The position numbers were made by a program, and so were the translations under genes. A model generated the notes under the pieces. That model was not told where the DNA came from and made no database searches. It was given only the letters and a program-made list of their open reading frames with translations. 64,000 nucleotides of DNA from Pectobacterium aroidearum (GTDB lineage: Bacteria; Pseudomonadota; Gammaproteobacteria; Enterobacterales; Enterobacteriaceae), in contig NZ_CP065044.1 in NCBI RefSeq assembly GCF_015689195.1, forward strand, positions 4,216,001-4,280,000, given 5' to 3'. Each line of letters begins with the position of its first letter. The first letter of the stretch is position 1. Shown one piece after another: positions 1 to 11,876 of the stretch.

Positions 1-176
1 CGCACTACTATGCGATTGGCCAGAAAATCCTTCCTTATGCCAAAAAATATTGGGGGACTAAATCTATTCCAGCCATTCCTGTTTCAATCAAAGCATCATT
101 GCAACACCCGTCGGCATCCAACCTGCAAAGCCTCATCAGCCGGGTTACTGCTGGCGTCGCAGGTAGCAAAAAGTAA
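1..176 (+). CDS. C-terminal end of an unrecognised protein (5' truncated by window edge)
   Basis: An open frame runs from the left edge (codons in phase with base 3) to a TAA at 174-176, giving about 57 residues that begin HYYAIGQKILPYAKK and end in VAGSKK. It is basic and has no motif I can name. It is not the C-terminus of ArgG, which lies on this side of leuU in E. coli. It ends 139 bases before the PKS start on the same strand, so it may belong to the same cluster, but the intervening bases could hold a separate promoter. Function unknown; that it is a real gene is inferred from the uninterrupted frame and position. Confidence 0.5.
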   Translation, partial: HYYAIGQKILPYAKKYWGTKSIPAIPVSIKASLQHPSASNLQSLISRVTAGVAGSKK

Positions 177-315: not shown

Positions 316-3300
316 ATGAAACAGCAAGAACAGTTCCGCGATAAGGATATTGCTATTGTAGGAATGTCGGCCCGCTTTCCCGGTGCGGAAGATACCGCGA
401 TATTTTGGCAAAACCTGTTGGACGGCGTGGAGACGATCAGCACATTCAGTGAAGAAGAACTGAGGGAGTCAGGCATTGAAGAAGAGATGATCGCCTCGCC
501 CAACTATATTCGCCGTCGGGGAATTTTGGGCAACGCACAGCACTTTGACGCTAATTTCTTTGATATTACGCCGCGCGATGCCGAAATTATGGACCCACAG
601 CATCGTGTCTTTTTGGAATGCTGCTGGCACGCATTTGAAGACGCAGGCTATGTACCTGCCACCTATCCCGGCAAAGTTGGCATCTTCGGCGGAACAGGAA
701 CCGCCTGGCATTTGAGTAAAGTGAATGCCCATCCTGAAGTACAGAAGTATGCCAGCGGCGCATCGGTCGTCACCAACAATGATAAAGATTACGTAACGAC
801 CCGGGTTTCTTATAAGCTCAACCTCAAAGGGCCGAGTGTTAACGTACAGACCGCCTGTTCAACCGCGATGGTCGCCGTCGTGATGGGCATGAATAGCCTG
901 TTGAACGGGGAAAGCGATCTGATCGTTGCGGGCGGTGTTTCCGTGGATACGCCAGAACGCCGGGGTTATCCTTATATGCAAGGCGGCATGGAATCCGCAG
1001 ATGGCCGCTGCTATGCCTTTGACTCCCGCGCCAACGGCACGGTGTTCAGCCGCGGTGCTGGCGTCGTGTTACTGAAGCGCCTGAATGACGCTGTGCGCGA
1101 CGGCGACCATATTTACGCCGTGCTGAAAGGCGGCGCAGTGAATAACGATGGTAACCTGAAAGCTGGTTTTACCGCGCCGAGCATCGACGGGCAGATCGCC
1201 GTTGCCAAACAGGCCATCGCCAATGCGCAGCTTGATCCCGCTACCATCAATTTTGTTGAAGCACACGGCACCGCGACGGCATTGGGCGACCCCATCGAAT
1301 TCACGTCGCTCACACAAACGTTTCAGGAATATACAGATAAAACCCAGTATTGCCGCCTGGGATCGGTGAAAACCAACATCGGCCATACGGACGCGGCATC
1401 AGGCATGGCCAGCCTCATCAAAGCCTCGCTGGCGCTGGAAACCGGCAAGCTGCCAGCCTCACTCCATTTCGAATCACCAAATCCTAACATTGAGTTTGAA
1501 ACCAGCCCGTTCATCATGAACACCGAGCTCAGCGAGCTGGAACCGTCGGAGACACCGCACCGCGCGCTGGTAAACTCTTTCGGCGTCGGCGGTACCAATG
1601 CCTGCGTCATTCTGGAAGCGGCGCCACCGCTCAACGCGGGCGATACCCATAATGACAGCCTGCTGGTTTTGCCTTTCTCCGCCAAAAGCCGCACGGCGCT
1701 GGAAGACATGAAACGCCGCCTGCGCGATTACCTCAGTGCGCATGACGACGCCAATCTGGCAGATATCGCCTACACCCTACAGGTTGGGAGACAAAAGTTC
1801 TCGCACAGCACGGCGGTTATCGGGAAGGATCGTGATTCCCTGCTGGCCAAACTGGATCAGCCGTCACTGGTTGTGACCCAACAGGGTAAAAGCAAAAAGT
1901 CTGTCGTGTTCATGTTCCCGGGACAGGGCAATCAGTATGTCAATATGGCGCGTGAACTGTACGATACCTACGACGTCTTCCGCGCGAGCATGGATCAATG
2001 CTGTGACTATCTGGAACCGATTCTGGACGTCAATTTGACGTCAATTATTTTTCAGGACAGCGACAATATCGCTGAGTCCCGTATCAATGAAACCCAGTTT
2101 ACCCAACCGTCCCTGTTCGTGGTGGAGTACAGTCTGGCAAAACTGTGGATGTCGTGGGGCATTCAGCCAGATGTCATGATTGGGCACAGCGTGGGGGAAT
2201 ACGTGGCAGCCTGCCTGTCCGGCGTATTCTCACTGGAAGATGCGCTGAAAGCCGTGGCGCTCCGGGGCAAAATGGTACAGGCATTGCCCGCAGGGGATAT
2301 GCTGGCTGTTCTGCTTGATGAGGAAAGCCTGAAGGCAAAACTTCACGGCAGCAAGCTGGAAATTGCAGCGGTTAACTACCCTGGGCTCTGCGTCATCGCC
2401 GGTGCTTCAAACGATATCGCACGTTTCCAGCAGCAGTTGGAAGACAGCAATATTTTCTGTAAACATCTCGACACTTCACACGCGTTCCACTCACACATGA
2501 TGGAGCCCATGCTGCCCGCCTTCAAAAAGGTCATCGACAGCATCAAGCTCCATGCACCACAGATCCCGTTTGTCTCTACCGTTAACGGCGCATGGGTCAC
2601 TGAAGAACTGGCGAAAAATAGCGACTACTGGGTGCGTCACGTACGCAACCCGGTGCTGTTCTCCCACGCCTTCAAAACGCTGATGGCTGAAGAGCATCAT
2701 GACTTCGTATTCCTTGAAGTCGGACCGGGGCGTTCACTGGAATCGTCCGCCAAGCAGCATTTCAGCGCGGAAGACGGCGCCTTGATTTATGCCTCATTAC
2801 CCACGGCAAAAGACGTTGCGTTATCCGGCGAACATCTCCTCTCAACGCTTGGCGCGCTTTGGGCTAGCGGCGTAGACGTTCCCTGGCATCTGCAGCATTC
2901 AGAGCAGCACCGTCGCCGAACCCCGCTGCCGGGCTACCCTTTTGAACGTAAACGCTTCGCCCTGCCAGCACTGTCGTCAGCCAGCCCTGACGCGCAGAGT
3001 GAACAATCCGTTAAGGCTAAGAAGCGGAAACAGGCCGATATCGGTGACTGGTTCTATATGCCGACCTGGAAAAAAACCATTCCAGCGAAATACATGGCGG
3101 GCAAACGCGTTGAAGCTGAGAACACCTGCTGGCTGATCCTGACGGATACACAGGGCATCGCCGAACGCACGAAGCAGATACTGGAAAAGGACGGGCATCA
3201 GGTCTTTTTCGTCAGCCCGGGAACGCAGTATCAGGAAACACGTTCCGAAGGCCGATACACTCTCAACCCTGCCTCACGCGCCGACTATGTCCGGTTACTG

Positions 3301-5817
3301 AAAAGTCTGACGGAGCAAGGGCTACGTCCATCGCGTATCCTGTATTTGTGGAACCTGGCGGCAGAGGAACAGGTACAGCCGCTTGAGCACACCTATCTCT
3401 CGTCACCGCTGAATACATTCTATCCTGCCCTCTATCTCCAGCAGGCGCTGGTGAATGAGAATTTGCTGGACGATCTGCATATCACTTTTGCCACCAGCAA
3501 CACATTCAGCGTCATGGGCGAACGTATCGCTTCCCCAGAGAATGCACTGCTGGTAGGACCTTCGCGCGTGTTCTATCACGAATACCCTGAGGTGCAATGC
3601 CATCTGGTAGATATCGATCTCAAACAAAACGCCGTACAGCTTGATGAATTTGCCCATAGCCTGATTGCAGAAAGCCATATTGCAACACACGGCAATCTGG
3701 TGGCTTACCGCGGAAACCAGCGCTGGGAAGAAAGCTATCAGGCCGTCCATCTGAAGCAGGACGATCTCGGTTTACCGGCAGAATTGAAAGACGACGGCGT
3801 CTACCTCATCACAGGCGGCCTCGGTGGCTTGGGGATCCTGCTTGCCAACCACCTGTCAGAAAAAAGTCATGCGACGCTCATCCTGACCTACCGCGCCGCG
3901 CTACCGCCACGCGAAGAGTGGCAAGCCTGGATCCAACAGCATCCTGTTGACGATCCTGTCAGTGAAAAGCTGGCGAGCATTTTACGTCTGGAAGCCCGCG
4001 GCAACCTGATACATCTGGCACAGGTCGACGTGAATGACTATCACGGTATGCGTGACATGTTATCCGCGTTCCCGCAGGTCGACGGAGTATTCCATACCGC
4101 AGGCGTGGCTGGCGGCGGCATTATTCCGCTGAAAAATGACGCCGATTGCGCCAACGTGCTCGATCCCAAAGTCGCAGGTTCGCTCATTCTGGATGAATTG
4201 CTACAGGACAAACAGCCAGACTTCTTTATTTTATTCTCTTCCATTACCTCCATTGTCGGTGACGAAGCCCGCATTGATTACTGCTCGGGTAACGCGTTTA
4301 TGGATGCCTTTGCGCATTACCGCAACCAGCATCGCCGCGGACGCACTGTCTCGCTGAACTGGGGAAAATGGGGCGATGTGGGCATGGCTGTCCGTTGGGG
4401 CAAGCAGTTACAGGAGAAGAAAAACAGCAAGCTGGCGGCTGTTGAGGAAACCAAAGGCGACCTGCTTACATACCTTGAGCGCGAAGGCATGCAGGAAAGC
4501 TATCAGGTTAATCTCACCGTGCAAGACTGGGTCATCGATGAGCACCGCCTCGCGAAGCAGCCTTCACTGGTGGGAGCGACGATTTTATCGCTGCTGCATG
4601 AGTTCATGACGTGCTTTAAACCTCAGGAAAGCCTGCAGGTCAAAAACCTGATGCTGACCAAGCCCGTTATCTATACCGATGCCTGGCCACGACAGATGAA
4701 GCTATTCATCACGCCAGATGGCAAAGGTTATAAGTTCAGCCTCAAGAGCCGAGGCGTGCTTGAACTCGCATGGCAAGAGCATGCATTCGGGGGAATCGGC
4801 AACGGTGCGCCAGCTTCCGATCTCACGCCACAATCGATTGACGCCATTAAACAGCGCTGCACCACGCAGGTGCCCTACGCGCCGTTTATCACTGAGCTGG
4901 ACAATGCCAACACGGGCGAAAATTTCCTGTCGTTCAGCCAGCGCTGGAACAACCACCGCGAGATCGTTCAGGGCAATAACGAATGGCTGATACACAAGGT
5001 GCTGGGGAACGAATATACGCACGATCTTACCCGCTATCCGTACCATCCAGCGCTGATTGATGCCACGGCGATATCCTGCCTGTCATTGATTACACAGGAG
5101 AATTTCCTGCCTATTAGCTATGGCAAGATGACCTTCCTATCTCCACTGGAAACAGAGTGCTACGTCCACGTCAGGCTCAAGCAAGCCTATCAGCCGCAGG
5201 ACAACGCCATCGTCATGGATATCACGTTCCTTTCACCGGCGGGCGTTCCGCTGCTGGTCCTGGAAAACTACACGCTGATGAAGATGACGATGGGCAATCA
5301 GCTCGCAACGCCAGAGAACACCACTGCGGCAACGGCAGCCACGGTAAAAGTGAATCTGGCAGATAAAGACATTCTGTTGCCAGAAGGGGTGGATGCCATA
5401 AAGCGCCAGCTCGCACATCTGGAATTTGAACAGTTAGTCGTCGTCACCAGCGATCTGGACCAGCTCATTTATGAGTCAATCCCTGAGCAGGAAACGCCTG
5501 AATTCATCTTGCAGGATAGCGAAGCTACGGAAGGGTATGCCAGACCCGCTCTCTCTGTGGATTACGTTGCGCCAGAAAATGACATTGAGAAAGAGATCGT
5601 CAAAGTCTGGCAGTCCATTCTGGGGATCTCGGGTATCGGCGTTAATGACAGCTTTACTGAACTGGGCGGTAACTCACTGCTGGCAGTACAGGTCGTTTCT
5701 ACCGTTTCCGGCATATTTGAAATCGATATTCGCGTTGATCTGTTTTACCAAAACCAGACCGTGCAAGGGTTAGCAACGCTGATCCTTACCGAACTGGAAG
5801 CCTTATTGCAGGAATAA
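316..5817 (+). CDS. type I polyketide synthase module, KS-AT-KR-DH-ACP
   Basis: 1833-residue single-module modular PKS that should extend an acyl chain by one malonyl unit on its own carrier protein. Ketosynthase at about 10-435 with the catalytic set Cys181 (QTACSTA), His317 (EAHGTA) and His357 (NIGH). Acyltransferase at about 565-870 with GHSVGE (Ser625) and HAFH (722-725), the signature of malonyl selection. Ketoreductase from about 1160 with the nucleotide loop GGLGGLG (1167-1173), an FSS serine pair (1308-1309) and Tyr1322. A dehydratase-like double hotdog follows: His1410 in DEHRLAKQ and Asp1582 in HPALIDA. The acyl carrier protein is C-terminal with GGNSL, Ser1787 carrying phosphopantetheine. 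KR lying before DH is unusual for cis-AT modules. There is no loading domain, so the starter must come from elsewhere. GGTGAGG lies just upstream of the ATG at 316. A strong hairpin separates it from the NRPS gene downstream. Confidence 0.93.
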   Translation: MKQQEQFRDKDIAIVGMSARFPGAEDTAIFWQNLLDGVETISTFSEEELRESGIEEEMIASPNYIRRRGILGNAQHFDANFFDITPRDAEIMDPQHRVFLECCWHAFEDAGYVPATYPGKVGIFGGTGTAWHLSKVNAHPEVQKYASGASVVTNNDKDYVTTRVSYKLNLKGPSVNVQTACSTAMVAVVMGMNSLLNGESDLIVAGGVSVDTPERRGYPYMQGGMESADGRCYAFDSRANGTVFSRGAGVVLLKRLNDAVRDGDHIYAVLKGGAVNNDGNLKAGFTAPSIDGQIAVAKQAIANAQLDPATINFVEAHGTATALGDPIEFTSLTQTFQEYTDKTQYCRLGSVKTNIGHTDAASGMASLIKASLALETGKLPASLHFESPNPNIEFETSPFIMNTELSELEPSETPHRALVNSFGVGGTNACVILEAAPPLNAGDTHNDSLLVLPFSAKSRTALEDMKRRLRDYLSAHDDANLADIAYTLQVGRQKFSHSTAVIGKDRDSLLAKLDQPSLVVTQQGKSKKSVVFMFPGQGNQYVNMARELYDTYDVFRASMDQCCDYLEPILDVNLTSIIFQDSDNIAESRINETQFTQPSLFVVEYSLAKLWMSWGIQPDVMIGHSVGEYVAACLSGVFSLEDALKAVALRGKMVQALPAGDMLAVLLDEESLKAKLHGSKLEIAAVNYPGLCVIAGASNDIARFQQQLEDSNIFCKHLDTSHAFHSHMMEPMLPAFKKVIDSIKLHAPQIPFVSTVNGAWVTEELAKNSDYWVRHVRNPVLFSHAFKTLMAEEHHDFVFLEVGPGRSLESSAKQHFSAEDGALIYASLPTAKDVALSGEHLLSTLGALWASGVDVPWHLQHSEQHRRRTPLPGYPFERKRFALPALSSASPDAQSEQSVKAKKRKQADIGDWFYMPTWKKTIPAKYMAGKRVEAENTCWLILTDTQGIAERTKQILEKDGHQVFFVSPGTQYQETRSEGRYTLNPASRADYVRLLKSLTEQGLRPSRILYLWNLAAEEQVQPLEHTYLSSPLNTFYPALYLQQALVNENLLDDLHITFATSNTFSVMGERIASPENALLVGPSRVFYHEYPEVQCHLVDIDLKQNAVQLDEFAHSLIAESHIATHGNLVAYRGNQRWEESYQAVHLKQDDLGLPAELKDDGVYLITGGLGGLGILLANHLSEKSHATLILTYRAALPPREEWQAWIQQHPVDDPVSEKLASILRLEARGNLIHLAQVDVNDYHGMRDMLSAFPQVDGVFHTAGVAGGGIIPLKNDADCANVLDPKVAGSLILDELLQDKQPDFFILFSSITSIVGDEARIDYCSGNAFMDAFAHYRNQHRRGRTVSLNWGKWGDVGMAVRWGKQLQEKKNSKLAAVEETKGDLLTYLEREGMQESYQVNLTVQDWVIDEHRLAKQPSLVGATILSLLHEFMTCFKPQESLQVKNLMLTKPVIYTDAWPRQMKLFITPDGKGYKFSLKSRGVLELAWQEHAFGGIGNGAPASDLTPQSIDAIKQRCTTQVPYAPFITELDNANTGENFLSFSQRWNNHREIVQGNNEWLIHKVLGNEYTHDLTRYPYHPALIDATAISCLSLITQENFLPISYGKMTFLSPLETECYVHVRLKQAYQPQDNAIVMDITFLSPAGVPLLVLENYTLMKMTMGNQLATPENTTAATAATVKVNLADKDILLPEGVDAIKRQLAHLEFEQLVVVTSDLDQLIYESIPEQETPEFILQDSEATEGYARPALSVDYVAPENDIEKEIVKVWQSILGISGIGVNDSFTELGGNSLLAVQVVSTVSGIFEIDIRVDLFYQNQTVQGLATLILTELEALLQE

Positions 5818-5822
5818 GGGCA

Positions 5823-5856
5823 CGGCCGCCTTCGGTATGCATCTCGAAGGCGGCCG
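5823..5856 (+). other. intercistronic 12-bp hairpin between PKS and NRPS genes
   Basis: CGGCCGCCTTCG (5823-5834) and CGAAGGCGGCCG (5845-5856) form a perfect 12-bp stem with a 10-base loop, starting six bases after the PKS stop codon. No T-tract follows, so it is not a classical intrinsic terminator. It could stabilise the upstream mRNA 3' end, mark a processing site, or set the PKS:NRPS ratio. The effect is inference; the stem is seen directly. Confidence 0.7.
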
Positions 5857-5895
5857 CTAATGTAAAAACCGAATGTCACAAAATGAGACTCGATA

Positions 5896-8800
5896 ATGAC
5901 GCAGCTTCCCACCGCAAAACTGACCTCGCTTAGCCTGGATGAACTCAAAAAGCTGGCAAGAGAAAAGAAGAAAACGAGCAACACATCCTCAGGTAAAGCC
6001 ATTACTCCGCACGCAACCCCCGGCAGAGTCCATTTCCCCATGACCAGCGCGCAAAAGCGTATCTGGATGCTCTCCCAATACCTTGACGATAGTCAGGTCT
6101 ATAACAATCCGTATGTGCTTGCCTGCAGAATCGAGCACGACATGGAGCCGCGGCGAGTACAGCAAACGCTCGACTATCTGATGCAACAACATGACATTCT
6201 GCGTACGACATTCCGGTTGGTCGATAACGATGTGTGCCAACACATCGCCGACGATATGTCTTTTCCGTTTAGCTTTGAAGATATCTCCGCATTCAGCGAA
6301 GAAGACATTGAAAAATACGTCTCAGAGACGGCCATAGCGAAAGGGAATATTGTTTTTGATCTGGAGAATGGCCCTCTGGTTTACCTCCATATGGTCAAAA
6401 CCCATCCGTACAACTATGTCCTATTTCTGACATTCCATCACATTATTTCCGACGGGTGGACGGTCAATGTGCTCTTCAAAATGCTGATGGAAAACTACTT
6501 TCGTCTGTTGCAAGGAGGGACATTACCTATCGAGAAAACGCTCCAGTTCGCCGATTACGCGCTGGCGGAAGATCGATGGTATACCGAGGGCGAATACCAG
6601 ACCGGGCTCGCTTACTGGGCGAAGAAGCTGGATGGCATCACGGGGCAGTTAGATCTGGCAACAGATTACCCCCGTCCAGCCAAAATGAGCACCGCCGGCG
6701 GCATCATAAGTCAGTTCTTTGATTCCTCTTTCTGCCAGCGTTTGCAAACCTCTGCCACACAGCATCAGGCCACGCAATTCCACGTTATCCTCACGGCATA
6801 TCAACTCCTGCTACATAAATACAGCGGGCAGCAGGAAATCATCATCGGCGCGCCATTTGCCAACCGCAATCTACCAGCCACGCAAAACATGATGGGGCTG
6901 TTCATGAATACCCTGCCATTACGTTTTGATATCGATCCTGATGCCAGTATCGCTTCGCTGATTGAGGGGGTGCGCGTCGAATGTGAAGAAAGCATGAAAT
7001 ATCAGGATGTGCCGTTCAATTACATTCTGGATGAGATTGCCTATGTGCGTAATCCCCAGATCAACCCGGTATTTCAGGCAATGCTGACTTATCAGGTGTT
7101 TCCTCATTTTCACAGCAACAGCGGGTTCAAATACAAGCCGTTAAAAGTGGATTACGGCACCGCCAAACTGGACCTGAACTTATGGGTAGAAGAAGACAAG
7201 GATAACGACGGCTTGCTGTTCACCATGAACTACAGCAGCGCGTTATTTTCCAGCAATACCATCCAACGCATGCTGAATGACTTGCGTACGGTGATTGAAA
7301 CCTTAATTAACCAGCCGCAACTCACCGTGCGGGATATTTCGCTGTTAGGCGATGAAGAACGCCGCGCGACCATCGCGCAATGTCGTCCAACCGCTAACAC
7401 GCTCCCACCAACCGTTCATCGGCAGTTTGAACAACAGGCACAGCAGAGGCCGAATGCTATCGCGGTTCGCTGTGAAGGACGCACACTAACCTACGCTCAG
7501 CTCAATGAACGGGCGAACCAGTTGGCTCATCAGCTACAGAAAGACGGGCTCGCTCATGGGGAGTGTGTCGCGTTATTTATGCCTAAAAGCGAGTATTACG
7601 TCATCGCGATTCTGGCCGTGTTAAAAGCGGGCGGATGCTATGTCCCAGTCGATATGGATCTTCCTGCGCAGCAGGTTGAGTTCATACTGCAAAACTCCGC
7701 CGCCCGTCGTGTCATCATCGACGAACAGGCGCCCGGTGAGATGCTCCCCTGCGTCTACGTAAGACAAAACCGCAGCACGATGCCAGACAACAATCCATCA
7801 CAACCACAGCCCGTGACAGATGGCCCTGCTTACATCATTTATACCTCGGGCAGTACCGGAAAACCCAAGGGCGTTCAGGTCAAACACTCACAGCTAAGCC
7901 ACTACTGTCAGGCCATTCGACCCGTGCTCAACCTGTCGTCCGATGCCCGCTACGGCATGTTTTCATCCTTCACAACCGATTTGGCACACACGGTGTTATT
8001 CCCCGCATTGATCCATCAGGGTCAATTGGATGTCATCACGACTGAATTACTCCGCTCGCCACAAGAGCTGTTTGCTTATCTGGCACACTACCCCGTAGAT
8101 TGCATAAAGATCACACCTTCCCATTTAGCGACGTTATTGACGTCACCACAGGCCGAAGCGTTATTACCTCGTCAGTTGCTGGTTATCGGCGGAGAACGCG
8201 TTCCTCTGTCACTCATCAAGCGCGTACGTGAGTTCCCCCTTCCTTGCCGCATCCTGAACCATTATGGTCCAACCGAGTGTACCGTCGGTGTCACCACCTA
8301 TCCGGTGCCAGAGGATCTTAGCGCGCTCTCAGGGAACTACTTACCCATCGGTAAACCCCTGTCCGATAGCCATGTCCTGCTGCTCGATCCTTATCACCAG
8401 TTAGTTCCTGCCGGTCTGCCAGGTGAAATTTATCTGGGTGGTTCACATGTGGCGGAAGGATACATCGGCCTGCCGGAGAAAAATCACACACGCTTTATCC
8501 CCCACCCTTACCTTGAGGGCGAGCGGCTTTATCGCAGCGGTGACAAAGGCCGCTTCCTGTCTGACGGCAATCTTGAATTTATGGGGCGCTTGGATCGCCA
8601 GGTTAAAGTACGCGGCTACCGTGTTGAGTTGACAGAGATCGAACAGGCATTACAACAGGTCGCTAATGCGACACACGTGGCCATTAAACAAAACACGCTC
8701 CCCCACGGAGAAGCCGTTTTAACCGCCTATGTGTGCGGTATTACCGACGCTCATCAGACTGCGGTAAAAGCAGCACTGCAAAAGAAATTGCCAGACTATA

Positions 8801-9969
8801 TGCAGCCCGAACGCTGGGTATGGCTAGAGGCGATGCCATTAACCGCCAGCGGTAAGATAAACTATGCCGCGTTACCTCTGCCCTCAGCGGAAAAGCGCGA
8901 ATCGCTTCATACCCCGGAAAATCAGCGCGAACGCGACCTGTATGAGATTTACCGTGATATTTTACAAAACGATGCCATTGATACGCAGGAGAGTTTCTTC
9001 ACGCTTGGCGGGAATTCTCTCAGTGCATTAAAGCTCATCCTGAACATTAATCAGCACTTCGGCACCTCCCTGTCTCTGGGACAACTGTTCGAAAACAGCA
9101 GCATTGCGCAGTTGGCTCGCGTGATTGACGAAAAAGGAACCCAGACTCAAGCCGCAAGGGTGACCATCAACCGTGGTCAGCCTGAAGATAAACCTACGTT
9201 GCTTTTGATCCACCCAGCAGGCGGCAACGTACTGTGCTATTCCGCGCTAGCGCGTGAATTGGGCGAGAGCTACCCGGTCTACGGTATTCAGGTGCCTGAC
9301 TTCAGCGTTAACCAGCCTTATAACGCCGATATCAAAGCGCTTGCCGCATTCTACCTCTCACAGGCTGGCGACATCATTCATCACTCTCGTCTGGTTCTGG
9401 GCGGGTGGTCCCTCGGCGCGACCATTGCCTTTGAAATGGCACAGCAGCTCGCGGCAAAAGGCATCACCCCCACGGTATTAGTCCTGGATCAGCCTGCGCC
9501 AGAGATCAACATCGATGGTTCAGCAGACATGAACGAGGCTGAACGTCTGGCGTACTTTGCACATAAAGTGGCTTTGTTTACCGGCACGTCTTTCGATCTG
9601 TCAGAGCAGTCACTTGCGGACATGAGCAATGCGCAACGCACGGCACGCTTTCTGACTGAATTTAAACGGGTGGGGCTGGTTCCTGAGTCAATTGGACCGA
9701 AAGCGTTTCAAGATTTTCTCAATATCCTGCAAACCCATATCTATGCAACGGATGCTTACCGTAGTGAGCCCTACTCAGGTGATGTACTGGTCGTCGAGGC
9801 GGACGATATTTTGCCCGGTCGCATCCGCCTGCCTGAATCCGGGTTGGGGTGGCGTCGCCTTACGTCAGGCTGCCTGACGGTACTGCCGACATCTGGCGAC
9901 CATATCTCAATGATGAACGCCCCACATATTTCGCGTATAGCCGAACAGCTCAAGAAAGTATTGCGATAA
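5896..9969 (+). CDS. non-ribosomal peptide synthetase, C-A(Asp)-T-TE
   Basis: 1357-residue terminal NRPS module. Condensation domain at about 50-470 with the active HHIISDG (181-187). Adenylation domain at about 510-1000 with YTSGSTGKPKG (649-659), NHYGPTE, YRSGD and SGKINY. Reading the binding-pocket positions against GrsA gives D-L-T-K-V-G-H-V-G plus the invariant Lys, close to the known aspartate codes and less so to asparagine. Thiolation domain with LGGNSL (Ser1041). Type I thioesterase from about 1100 with GWSLG (Ser1172), Asp1198 and GDH (His1336), a complete triad. The protein should therefore take the acyl chain from the PKS carrier protein, join it to one aspartate and release it by hydrolysis or cyclisation. 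No epimerase or methyltransferase domain is seen. The start at 5896 has only a weak Shine-Dalgarno, so translation may be coupled to the upstream gene. Confidence 0.93.
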   Translation: MTQLPTAKLTSLSLDELKKLAREKKKTSNTSSGKAITPHATPGRVHFPMTSAQKRIWMLSQYLDDSQVYNNPYVLACRIEHDMEPRRVQQTLDYLMQQHDILRTTFRLVDNDVCQHIADDMSFPFSFEDISAFSEEDIEKYVSETAIAKGNIVFDLENGPLVYLHMVKTHPYNYVLFLTFHHIISDGWTVNVLFKMLMENYFRLLQGGTLPIEKTLQFADYALAEDRWYTEGEYQTGLAYWAKKLDGITGQLDLATDYPRPAKMSTAGGIISQFFDSSFCQRLQTSATQHQATQFHVILTAYQLLLHKYSGQQEIIIGAPFANRNLPATQNMMGLFMNTLPLRFDIDPDASIASLIEGVRVECEESMKYQDVPFNYILDEIAYVRNPQINPVFQAMLTYQVFPHFHSNSGFKYKPLKVDYGTAKLDLNLWVEEDKDNDGLLFTMNYSSALFSSNTIQRMLNDLRTVIETLINQPQLTVRDISLLGDEERRATIAQCRPTANTLPPTVHRQFEQQAQQRPNAIAVRCEGRTLTYAQLNERANQLAHQLQKDGLAHGECVALFMPKSEYYVIAILAVLKAGGCYVPVDMDLPAQQVEFILQNSAARRVIIDEQAPGEMLPCVYVRQNRSTMPDNNPSQPQPVTDGPAYIIYTSGSTGKPKGVQVKHSQLSHYCQAIRPVLNLSSDARYGMFSSFTTDLAHTVLFPALIHQGQLDVITTELLRSPQELFAYLAHYPVDCIKITPSHLATLLTSPQAEALLPRQLLVIGGERVPLSLIKRVREFPLPCRILNHYGPTECTVGVTTYPVPEDLSALSGNYLPIGKPLSDSHVLLLDPYHQLVPAGLPGEIYLGGSHVAEGYIGLPEKNHTRFIPHPYLEGERLYRSGDKGRFLSDGNLEFMGRLDRQVKVRGYRVELTEIEQALQQVANATHVAIKQNTLPHGEAVLTAYVCGITDAHQTAVKAALQKKLPDYMQPERWVWLEAMPLTASGKINYAALPLPSAEKRESLHTPENQRERDLYEIYRDILQNDAIDTQESFFTLGGNSLSALKLILNINQHFGTSLSLGQLFENSSIAQLARVIDEKGTQTQAARVTINRGQPEDKPTLLLIHPAGGNVLCYSALARELGESYPVYGIQVPDFSVNQPYNADIKALAAFYLSQAGDIIHHSRLVLGGWSLGATIAFEMAQQLAAKGITPTVLVLDQPAPEINIDGSADMNEAERLAYFAHKVALFTGTSFDLSEQSLADMSNAQRTARFLTEFKRVGLVPESIGPKAFQDFLNILQTHIYATDAYRSEPYSGDVLVVEADDILPGRIRLPESGLGWRRLTSGCLTVLPTSGDHISMMNAPHISRIAEQLKKVLR

Positions 9970-10033
9970 CACATCCGCCGTCTGTGGTTTCAAACGCAGA
10001 ACGGCGGTTTCATGACGTAAGCGAGGAGAAAAC

Positions 10034-10660
10034 ATGGGCCATCCCCCGTCGTTAACCGTTTGGCGATATCTGAGATCACGCGATGCGCTTCTGACCATTA
10101 TCATACCGGTCATTCTTTACAACATCGCATTCTTACAATCGGGGGCGGGCATTGCGCTGTTAATTACCGCGATCTATTCCGGTGTCCTGCAATTATTCAG
10201 CCGTTGGCAGGGCTATCTGCCAATCATCGCTCTCATCCTGGTTTCGGGGCTTAGTCACTACCTTTATCTCGAAGGGGTAATGCTGCTTGGAATCCATCAG
10301 GAGAGCGTCTTTTTATCGATCAGCGGCGCGCTTTCCACCGTTATTATTTTTTCCATTTACAGTATCAAGGGGCGTCCGGTCATACAAATCTTGGCGGAAC
10401 AAGCTACGCCGGACCTTAAGACGCTCCCCGTTTATGGCACACCGCAGTATGTCAGAGTCTGGAATGAGGTATCACTTGTCTGGATTCTTGTCTACCTGGT
10501 AAAAGCCATCATCATTTACCTCCTTTCTCTCCAGCCCGGATTACCGATGGATACCCTTGTCCTCATCAGCGGATGGCCGCTTACGCTACTGCTGGTGATT
10601 TTCAGTTTCCGCTGGCCAAAGCATCGTTGGACCTCGCACGCACACGACAACGCTTCCTGA
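10034..10660 (+). CDS. VC0807-type multi-pass membrane protein
   Basis: 208-residue integral membrane protein with about six hydrophobic segments, roughly residues 18-35, 37-55, 62-82, 88-107, 145-165 and 172-192, and a short basic C-terminus. It resembles the small VC0807 family of inner-membrane proteins, for which no biochemical role is established. AGGAG lies six to seven bases before the ATG. It sits 64 bases after the NRPS stop on the same strand, so it is probably co-transcribed and might act in export of, or protection from, the cluster product. That role is an inference from position only; no transporter signature is visible. Confidence 0.75.
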   Translation: MGHPPSLTVWRYLRSRDALLTIIIPVILYNIAFLQSGAGIALLITAIYSGVLQLFSRWQGYLPIIALILVSGLSHYLYLEGVMLLGIHQESVFLSISGALSTVIIFSIYSIKGRPVIQILAEQATPDLKTLPVYGTPQYVRVWNEVSLVWILVYLVKAIIIYLLSLQPGLPMDTLVLISGWPLTLLLVIFSFRWPKHRWTSHAHDNAS

Positions 10661-10712
10661 CCAACTCAACAGGTAGCGCATAACATAATGAATGATAAAT
10701 ATAGGGAATATT

Positions 10713-11729
10713 ATGAATCCGTTAGAAAACAAGCTGATTGTACTGGATCACCATCCTGATGGCCCTGCGCAGCTAGAGCATTTCAGGTTTGAAAAGCGCC
10801 ATATCAATGCACTACAGCCCGGCGAATATCTGGTTGAAAACAAATGGTTATCCATTGACCTTTATACACGTCCACGGCTTAACAAGAACACGGCCTATGT
10901 GAGCCCAATCAAACAGGGCGAGGTAATTCAAGGCGAAACGATAGGCTACGTGGTGGCGACGAAAAATCCACATTTTCAGGTTGGAGACTGCGTGTTCACC
11001 TTCTCAGGCTGGCAGAAATACTATGTCGGCACGCCTCAGGATTTTATTACGCATCGCCTGCCGCCAACGATTCTGTCACCTTCGATTTTTCTCAGCGTAG
11101 TCGGAACACCGGGACGTTCCGCTTATTTTGGCATGAACAAAATAGCCAAACCCAAAGCGGGAGAAACGCTGGTGGTCTCAGCAGCCTCAGGGGGCGTAGG
11201 ATCCGTCGTCGGTCAATTAGGTAAACAGGCTGGATGCCGGGTTGTCGGTCTGGCTGGCAGCGAAGAGAAGTGTCGCTATGTCGTTGATACATTAGGCTTT
11301 GACGCCTGCATTAATTATAAAGAAGATGATCTAAACCGAGCCTTGCGGGCTGCCTGTCCTAACGGGATTGATATCTATTTTGAAAACGTTGGTGGCAGGA
11401 TCTCACTGTTCGTCGCCAAACTACTCAACGAAGGCGCAAGAGTCCCAGTCTGTGGCAGTGCAGCACAATACAATCAGGATCCTGACGTTGACGCGTCCAG
11501 CACAGTCGCGTTTTTCTCTTCTCTACCCGATGCCCCGCTGAGCCGTTTTTTTCTCGTAACAGAATGGTTCAAAGACTATGCGGAAGCAAACATCTGGCTA
11601 TTGGATGCCGTAGAGAAAGGACGGTTAAAATACCGGGAGAGCATTGTTGAGGGAATAGAAAATGCACCTCAAGCCTTTATCGATCTGTTAGATAGCAAAC
11701 ACTTTGGCAAGCAGCTGGTTCGTCTGTAA
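10713..11729 (+). CDS. NADP-dependent medium-chain reductase (CurA/leukotriene B4 dehydrogenase-like)
   Basis: 338-residue zinc-free medium-chain dehydrogenase/reductase. The nucleotide-binding loop is AASGGVGS, followed by the GxxxxxxGLAGS pattern typical of the CurA / prostaglandin reductase branch, which reduces activated C=C bonds of enones with NADPH. The ATG at 10713 is preferred over the in-frame ATG at 10692 because AGGGA lies five bases upstream and family members begin at about this point. It is the last gene of the + strand cluster and ends 60 bases before the tRNA-Leu 3' end. Because the PKS has KR and DH but no ER domain, this enzyme is a plausible trans-acting enoyl reductase or tailoring enzyme; that is inference. 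It could equally be an unrelated quinone/enone reductase. Confidence 0.85.
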   Translation: MNPLENKLIVLDHHPDGPAQLEHFRFEKRHINALQPGEYLVENKWLSIDLYTRPRLNKNTAYVSPIKQGEVIQGETIGYVVATKNPHFQVGDCVFTFSGWQKYYVGTPQDFITHRLPPTILSPSIFLSVVGTPGRSAYFGMNKIAKPKAGETLVVSAASGGVGSVVGQLGKQAGCRVVGLAGSEEKCRYVVDTLGFDACINYKEDDLNRALRAACPNGIDIYFENVGGRISLFVAKLLNEGARVPVCGSAAQYNQDPDVDASSTVAFFSSLPDAPLSRFFLVTEWFKDYAEANIWLLDAVEKGRLKYRESIVEGIENAPQAFIDLLDSKHFGKQLVRL

Positions 11730-11789: not shown

Positions 11790-11876
11790 TGGTACCGAGG
11801 ACGGGACTTGAACCCGTAAGCCCAATCGGGCACTACCACCTCAAGGTAGCGTGTCTACCAATTCCACCACCACGGC
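11790..11876 (-). tRNA. leuU: tRNA-Leu (GAG anticodon)
   Basis: 87-base gene on the minus strand, nearly identical to E. coli leuU. It has anticodon loop CTTGAGG, a long variable arm, TTCAAGT in the T loop, and CCA encoded at 11792-11790. It lies upstream of secG as in E. coli. The acceptor stem reads GCCGTGG against CCTCGGT, so position 5 (base 11872) faces a U at position 68 (base 11798) with no pair. The 3' end borders the accessory PKS/NRPS region, a common island attachment point. Confidence 0.95.

Follow-up and report, generated by a model that had tools for sequence, protein, structure and literature searches.

The window analysed here, i.e. a whole stretch of 64,000 nucleotides (positions 4216001-4280000) of the 4,995,896-base, single-contig genome of Pectobacterium aroidearum (NZ_CP065044.1), carries at its left end part of a cluster combining a polyketide synthase (PKS) and nonribosomal peptide synthetases (NRPS). 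Glidobactin/syringolin-type assembly lines, which share some of its features, make vinylogous amino acids. Orthologous clusters are found in Xenorhabdus bovienii / X. thuongxuanensis and in the Shewanella surugensis group, and we know of no product for these. According to the accessible part of one survey, 61% of the PKS/NRPS hybrid clusters in Xenorhabdus/Photorhabdus are unidentified (PMC9177418). For Pectobacterium, the accessible parts of three further sources name coronafacic acid and a syringomycin-like NRPS as phytotoxins (PMC6963963), give cluster counts at the genus level only (PMC9125672), and list an adenylation-domain gene, possibly a part of the present locus, that matches best to Brenneria (PMC10991766). 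Among the titles and abstract openings searched (most subscription papers lie outside this scope), none was recognisable as this cluster, which is not proof of its absence from the literature.

The gene content and the intact active sites identify the system as a complete type I hybrid NRPS-PKS assembly line, the left half of which lies beyond the window. The line is conserved and apparently functional, and our literature searches met no description of it. Its surprising parts are a carrier protein paralogue without the phosphopantetheine serine and an exchangeable gene cassette. The four open reading frames within the window were confirmed, all on the plus strand, and encode proteins of 1833, 1357, 208 and 345 amino acids (aa). 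These and their domains are:

316..5817, plus strand: type I PKS, domain order ketosynthase (KS)-acyltransferase (AT)-ketoreductase (KR)-dehydratase (DH)-acyl carrier protein (ACP) (Pfam: ketoacyl synthase, acyltransferase, KR, PS-DH, PP-binding)
343..1473, plus strand: KS domain (Pfam ketoacyl-synt and Ketoacyl-synt_C; KS His motifs)
1906..2805, plus strand: AT domain (motif HAFH, presumed malonyl-type)
3796..4374, plus strand: KR domain (Pfam and conserved residues)
4492..5289, plus strand: DH domain, located after KR (catalytic His and Asp conserved)
5593..5784, plus strand: ACP domain (Pfam and conserved residues)
5896..9969, plus strand: NRPS with condensation (C), adenylation (A), thiolation (T) and thioesterase (TE) domains, C-A-T-TE (Pfam: Condensation, AMP-binding, PP-binding, Thioesterase)
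6031..7365, plus strand: C domain (HHIISDG)
7426..8856, plus strand: A domain, code DLTKVGHVGK (motif-anchored)
8938..9126, plus strand: T domain
9196..9954, plus strand: TE domain (Ser, Asp, His)
10034..10660, plus strand: membrane protein, weak VC0807-family similarity
10692..11729, plus strand: NADPH reductase of the medium-chain dehydrogenase/reductase (MDR) family, CurA-like (Pfam ADH_N_2 / ADH_zinc_N), candidate trans enoyl reductase

An earlier note, made from the window's letters alone, had read here one PKS module, one NRPS module with thioesterase, a membrane protein and a reductase, all co-directional, and the coordinates and Pfam domains bear this out. Its predictions of malonyl extension, ketoreduction and dehydration capacity agree with the HAFH motif (malonyl-type by the usual rule) and the intact KR and DH residues, and those of an aspartate-type A domain and of release with the code DLTKVGHVGK, presumed to be that of aspartate from the usual code positions, and the TE residues present. 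The PKS key residues are kept in all 20 rows of an alignment that covers 19 genomes and leaves out broken copies and the three distant loci L022, L023 and L026; in the two Xenorhabdus orthologues the AT motif reads HGFH in place of HAFH. The key residues of the NRPS are likewise kept in 14/14, and those of the A-T-C synthetase described below in 13/13, full-length rows (without the fragmented L021 copies and the same distant loci).

To the left of the window edge the cluster runs about 9 kb further (stretch L008), at a variable site flanked by tRNA-Met and rimP on one side and by tRNA-Leu(GAG) and secG on the other. The remaining features are:

L008 6024-6638, minus strand: LuxR-type regulator
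L008 7072-7665: first DUF2589 protein
L008 7658-8119: phage-type lysozyme (PF00959 match)
L008 8176-8607: small membrane protein with three predicted transmembrane (TM) segments
L008 8855-11953, minus strand: A-T-C synthetase
L008 12267-12908: second DUF2589 protein (DUF2589b)
L008 13011-14522: stand-alone A domain
L008 14533-14805: stand-alone peptidyl carrier protein (PCP)
L008 14905-15177, plus strand: serine-less PCP-like protein of 90 aa (psi-PCP), starting 97 bases left of the window and followed by the PKS gene; its 3' part is window 1..176
Window 11790..11876, minus strand: tRNA-Leu(GAG), which bounds the variable site on the right

The earlier interpretation is supported as to its domains and unsupported in two respects. 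The set of four genes is too small, as A-T-C, A and PCP precede it, and the starter, for which an external donor or the gene truncated at the window edge had been expected, would come from these proteins, the edge gene being the PCP paralogue without serine. Of the genes sought in the bases further left, loading genes (A-T-C, A and PCP) were found; a phosphopantetheinyl transferase was not found inside the cluster, and no integrase was seen among the 13 cluster genes scanned, although no search was aimed at integrases. Two PF01648 matches elsewhere in the same genome (1.40 Mb and 4.37 Mb) make a phosphopantetheinyl transferase available to the line. A second NRPS locus of this genome, at 4354594-4372586, has one of these two matches nearby.

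The product that we propose follows from the order of these modules. The A-T-C protein would activate a starter acid X. Its code by motif anchoring is AATYFSLANK, and X probably lacks an ordinary alpha-amine, because Ala stands at the place of Asp235 (in 13/13 rows). The condensation domain of the same protein, which in 13/13 rows has HHxxFD and then a His or Arg instead of HHxxxDG, would link X to a second amino acid (aa2), which the stand-alone A domain (code DVWQFGLIFK by motif anchoring) would load onto the stand-alone PCP. A starter-loading module is thus present within the cluster as judged from sequence, with starter loading as its presumed role. The KS may then accept X-aa2 and one malonyl unit would be added, KR and DH would yield a gamma-amino alpha,beta-unsaturated acyl chain, saturation of which may be the task of the MDR reductase (the C2 unit would otherwise stay unsaturated), and C-A-T-TE would append aspartate, after which the TE would free the product. 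The reductase was not found in either Xenorhabdus locus. The membrane protein encoded between the NRPS and the reductase has no Pfam match and a VC0807-family score of 19 against a cut-off of 65 bits; a VC0807-like protein is also encoded in both Xenorhabdus and in three of the four Shewanella loci, the fourth of which stops at a contig edge. We give a probability of about 0.5 to the whole reading, i.e. an X-aa2-C2-Asp line with psi-PCP as a helper and possibly with lytic release, the chemistry and the order of steps being what we infer from the genes and active sites found.

In named genomes, 17 loci were identified, 14 of which (in Pectobacterium, Brenneria, Xenorhabdus and Shewanella) have a PKS of at least 59% identity followed by the NRPS, while the remaining three are distant (PKS identity of 38-44%). 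Strong PKS matches were obtained in 4/394 genomes of the order: that of the window, a genome with two copies (58-62% identity) and two further genomes at 36-39%. In the class there were 5/369, again counting that of the window, the four others having 39-43% identity. In the two-copy genome of the order (G186; L037 and L040) each copy adjoins a fused A-PCP protein. In another genome of the same family (G940, L137) the line is found at 52-68% identity, again with a fused A-PCP protein, and an apparent exporter gene, recognised by eye and running off the end of the stretch, follows the NRPS gene. The pathway is conserved in bacteria that cause soft rot of crops, and insect symbionts and Shewanella have related ones.

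Of the 25 Pectobacterium genomes, 11 have an intact PKS, two (G016 and G020) a broken one and 12 no orthologue. In G020 (Pectobacterium sp. PL152, CP091064; locus L021) the cluster genes and the neighbouring glmM are fragmented alike. Since glmM, which is expected to be essential, is broken in the same way, these breaks were not taken as real loss and are probably sequencing errors (indels) and not decay. As for the other genomes, G005 holds decayed remnants of the locus, G014 and G023 give short matches to both island ends, G003 has different content at the site, G017, G018, G021 and G022 have a short site, and secG of G011 and G013 lies outside the stretch examined. On the decay in relatives that the earlier note had asked about, the evidence is mixed: the 11 intact copies speak against it, and one remnant genome and two broken copies, one of them probably a sequencing artefact, speak for it.

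Absence from 12 of 25 genomes, with clear remnants in one and short matches to both ends in two, is also what would be seen if this were an ordinary orphan hybrid cluster in which psi-PCP is an unimportant, slowly decaying duplicate and the DUF2589 and lysozyme genes are mere neighbours. We regard this explanation as a real possibility, if a somewhat improbable one. psi-PCP and the adjoining PCP share 28% identity over 90/90 residues without gaps (E 2e-8), and hhalign aligned them with a probability of 96% (E 3.8e-9). Their score of 86 compares with a maximum of 59 in 2000 shuffles, and psi-PCP scores 21-29 against each of the three remaining carriers that the cluster encodes. Judged from these comparisons, the two proteins have common ancestry; structure prediction gave no confirmation. 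The phosphopantetheine serine is replaced in psi-PCP by Ile (8), Val (3) or Leu (1) in the 12 sequences from 12 genomes, and the protein is therefore unable to hold the starter in the usual way. The idea that the small gene before the PKS is the only carrier of the line, in a decayed state, was rejected, because a search of the genome with PF00550 found the true PCP just upstream.

The reading frame of psi-PCP is open in all 12 aligned sequences (12 genomes; the fragmented G020 copy was excluded, and that of G016, 51% identical and open, was not aligned). The ratio of nonsynonymous to synonymous substitution rates (dN/dS, NG86) between the window copy and 11 relatives is 0.11-0.27, and the other Brenneria pairs listed have 0.16-0.41; identical or truncated sequences were left out, and the Brenneria and P. 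zantedeschiae pairs have dS >1. Both the open frame and these ratios argue against slow decay. In favour of it, psi-PCP evolves faster than PCP, with a pooled pN/pS within Pectobacterium of 0.32 vs 0.04.

Outside Pectobacterium and Brenneria, the two genera in which A and PCP are also split, psi-PCP was not found. In Pectobacterium it is present in 13/25 genomes, the same 13 that have the PKS (the G020 copy in two pieces). A search of 357 genomes of the family gave five with a match: two are Pectobacterium, two come from one other genus (52-53% identity) and are taken as Brenneria because named Brenneria loci show 50-53%, and the fifth match, with E 0.001, falls on a fused A-PCP protein. The PCPs of the two Brenneria-like genomes probably account for the second matches obtained there. 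In one Xenorhabdus/Shewanella locus the psi-PCP query matches the fused PCP (29%). A and PCP form one fused protein in 9/9 loci (8 genomes) outside Pectobacterium/Brenneria and are separate in 7/7 pattern-matching loci of these two genera, as well as in L010 by coordinates. In our reading, PCP was split off its A domain and duplicated in Pectobacterium/Brenneria, and the second copy lost its serine. Selection would nevertheless have maintained psi-PCP, which perhaps serves in docking or as a helper, either of the detached A/PCP pair or of the A-T-C condensation step. A selected serine-less carrier protein, if true, would allow non-catalytic roles of carrier domains to be tested directly; the literature searched on serine-less carriers contained no matching paper, which does not prove absence in print.

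The second surprising part concerns the exit of the product. In the Xenorhabdus/Shewanella loci a major facilitator superfamily (MFS) exporter gene follows the line (6/6), with its place between the NRPS and membrane protein genes, and a membrane fusion protein (MFP) adaptor gene is present in 5/6, the sixth locus stopping at a contig edge; neither gene was found in the eight Pectobacterium/Brenneria genomes compared. In Pectobacterium/Brenneria the line is interleaved with the LuxR, DUF2589, lysozyme and three-TM genes, and the last three of these show the opposite host pattern to MFS/MFP, where loci reach that far. The lysozyme keeps the GH24-type motif E-x8-[DC]-x5-T in 24/24 loci scanned (chosen as lysozyme-bearing). 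Its start shows no evident hydrophobic signal, so access of the enzyme to the wall would call for a partner in the membrane. It is plausible that the LuxR/DUF2589/lysozyme/three-TM cassette would help to release the product by controlled lysis, in place of the MFS/MFP exporters.

At the same site and with the same genes, the cargo of two Pectobacterium genomes, G006 and G010, is another one, namely a SagB/C/D-type cluster for an azole-containing ribosomally synthesised and post-translationally modified peptide (azole-RiPP). The two cargoes are thus distributed as PKS-NRPS in 13/25 and azole-peptide in 2/25 Pectobacterium genomes, and this occurrence of two different biosynthetic cargoes with the same genes at one site speaks against mere neighbours. 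The azole-RiPP cluster spans L060 5128-11623 (G010) and L061 10639-17157 (G006) and includes a Cys-rich precursor; its gene families were assigned on G010.

Outside these genera, LuxR, both DUF2589 proteins and the lysozyme occur together in all eight further family genomes picked by their DUF2589b matches, and in these cassettes (L129-L136) no homologue of the PKS-NRPS or azole-RiPP cargo was found, other cargo not having been searched for. Two more sets of LuxR, DUF2589 pair and lysozyme, in L062 and L105, are also without the two Pectobacterium cargoes. The sets of L062, L105 and L129-L136 are compact, lie at various sites in several genera and mostly include a small membrane protein, which is predicted to have two TM segments in L062 and L105 as against three in the genome of the window; they often carry a putatively secreted protein of ~160 aa. 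DUF2589 itself is present in 23/394 genomes of the order. For DUF2589b, an AlphaFold model (pLDDT 58) and Foldseek gave nothing usable.

Several of these results weigh against the proposed line with its helper and release system. Cassettes exist without the line in other genera, and since eight of them lack either cargo, their own role need not be product release; a homologue of the three-TM protein is present in 5/8 of them. Among 30 DUF2589 loci sampled in the order, this lysozyme lies within 1.5 kb in only three, and the 27 others, together with the cassettes lacking the line, favour the view of an ordinary orphan cluster with mere neighbours. The cassette membrane protein has no match to a holin family in Pfam or PHROGs. 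psi-PCP has no Pfam match, including the carrier family PF00550, its AlphaFold model is poor (pLDDT 55) and Foldseek gave no carrier fold for it, and a profile search against the PDB found no carrier. As to the terminal residue, the part of the NRPS code that reads TDLAHT in 13/14 rows is TDSAHV in one Shewanella. Finally, a single ancestral change may account for the A/PCP split, for psi-PCP and for the lack of exporters, and because of this their correlation is weak functional evidence.

Taken jointly, the two proposals, psi-PCP as a selected non-catalytic partner of a split NRPS and the cassette as an exchangeable release chassis for small molecules that replaces exporters, are advanced tentatively, and we consider that both hold together to be rather unlikely. 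If true, the release chassis would mean that small molecules, too, use lysis-type secretion, which has been described for proteins, and it would account for the swapping of cargo at a biosynthetic locus while regulation and exit are retained.

Two further explanations concern the product. The PKS could act iteratively and build a longer chain, the product being a fatty or polyene N-acyl-aspartate and not a one-extension peptide. The order of KR before DH resembles that of iterative synthases of polyunsaturated fatty acids, TIGR02813 (PfaA) matches part of the PKS far below its cut-off, and a single PKS module accompanied by a separate MDR reductase would suit such a mechanism. However, the PKS has A-T-C and A/PCP as neighbours wherever the loci of Pectobacterium, Brenneria alni, Xenorhabdus and Shewanella extend far enough, and these count against iteration because an amino-acyl chain would come from them, as happens in modular lines; we therefore consider the iterative explanation improbable. 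The first proposal, in which the cluster has four genes, the acyl donor is external and the product is a small N-acyl-aspartate, fits the aspartate code and the TE, but is very improbable given the starter module and the amino acid-loading A/PCP encoded directly to the left and co-occurring with the line in relatives.

The proposed X-aa2-C2-Asp line was finally compared with the known systems. The Xenorhabdus/Shewanella clusters share with it the core of A-T-C, A, PCP, KS-AT-KR-DH-ACP and C-A-T-TE, and the VC0807-like protein in 5/6 loci, and differ in a fused A-PCP, MFS and MFP exporters and the lack of a separate psi-PCP and of DUF2589 and lysozyme genes. Tetramate PKS-NRPS systems of the heat-stable antifungal factor (HSAF) type also place one reducing PKS module before C-A-T-TE. 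Membership in this type was rejected, because here the proteins are separate and the code is that of aspartate, vs a single polypeptide of ornithine type, and an extra A-T-C and A/PCP lie upstream. With the glidobactin/syringolin-type lines the locus shares the combination of an amino acid, malonyl, KR and DH leading to a gamma-amino alpha,beta-unsaturated unit; the order of modules differs, the terminus is aspartate, and membership is not claimed. The putative release system resembles type 10 secretion, e.g. that of Yersinia entomophaga, in which, by the accessible part of the source (PMC10847048), a peptidoglycan hydrolase with no evident signal is combined with a small membrane protein and cargo. 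It departs from that system in its small-molecule cargo, the added DUF2589 pair and a membrane protein that lacks a holin match and was not found in some cassettes; no spanin was identified here, although no search was aimed at spanins. A peptidoglycan hydrolase with an intact active site (PF00959, GH24-type motif), itself a feature of type 10 secretion, is present in the cassette.

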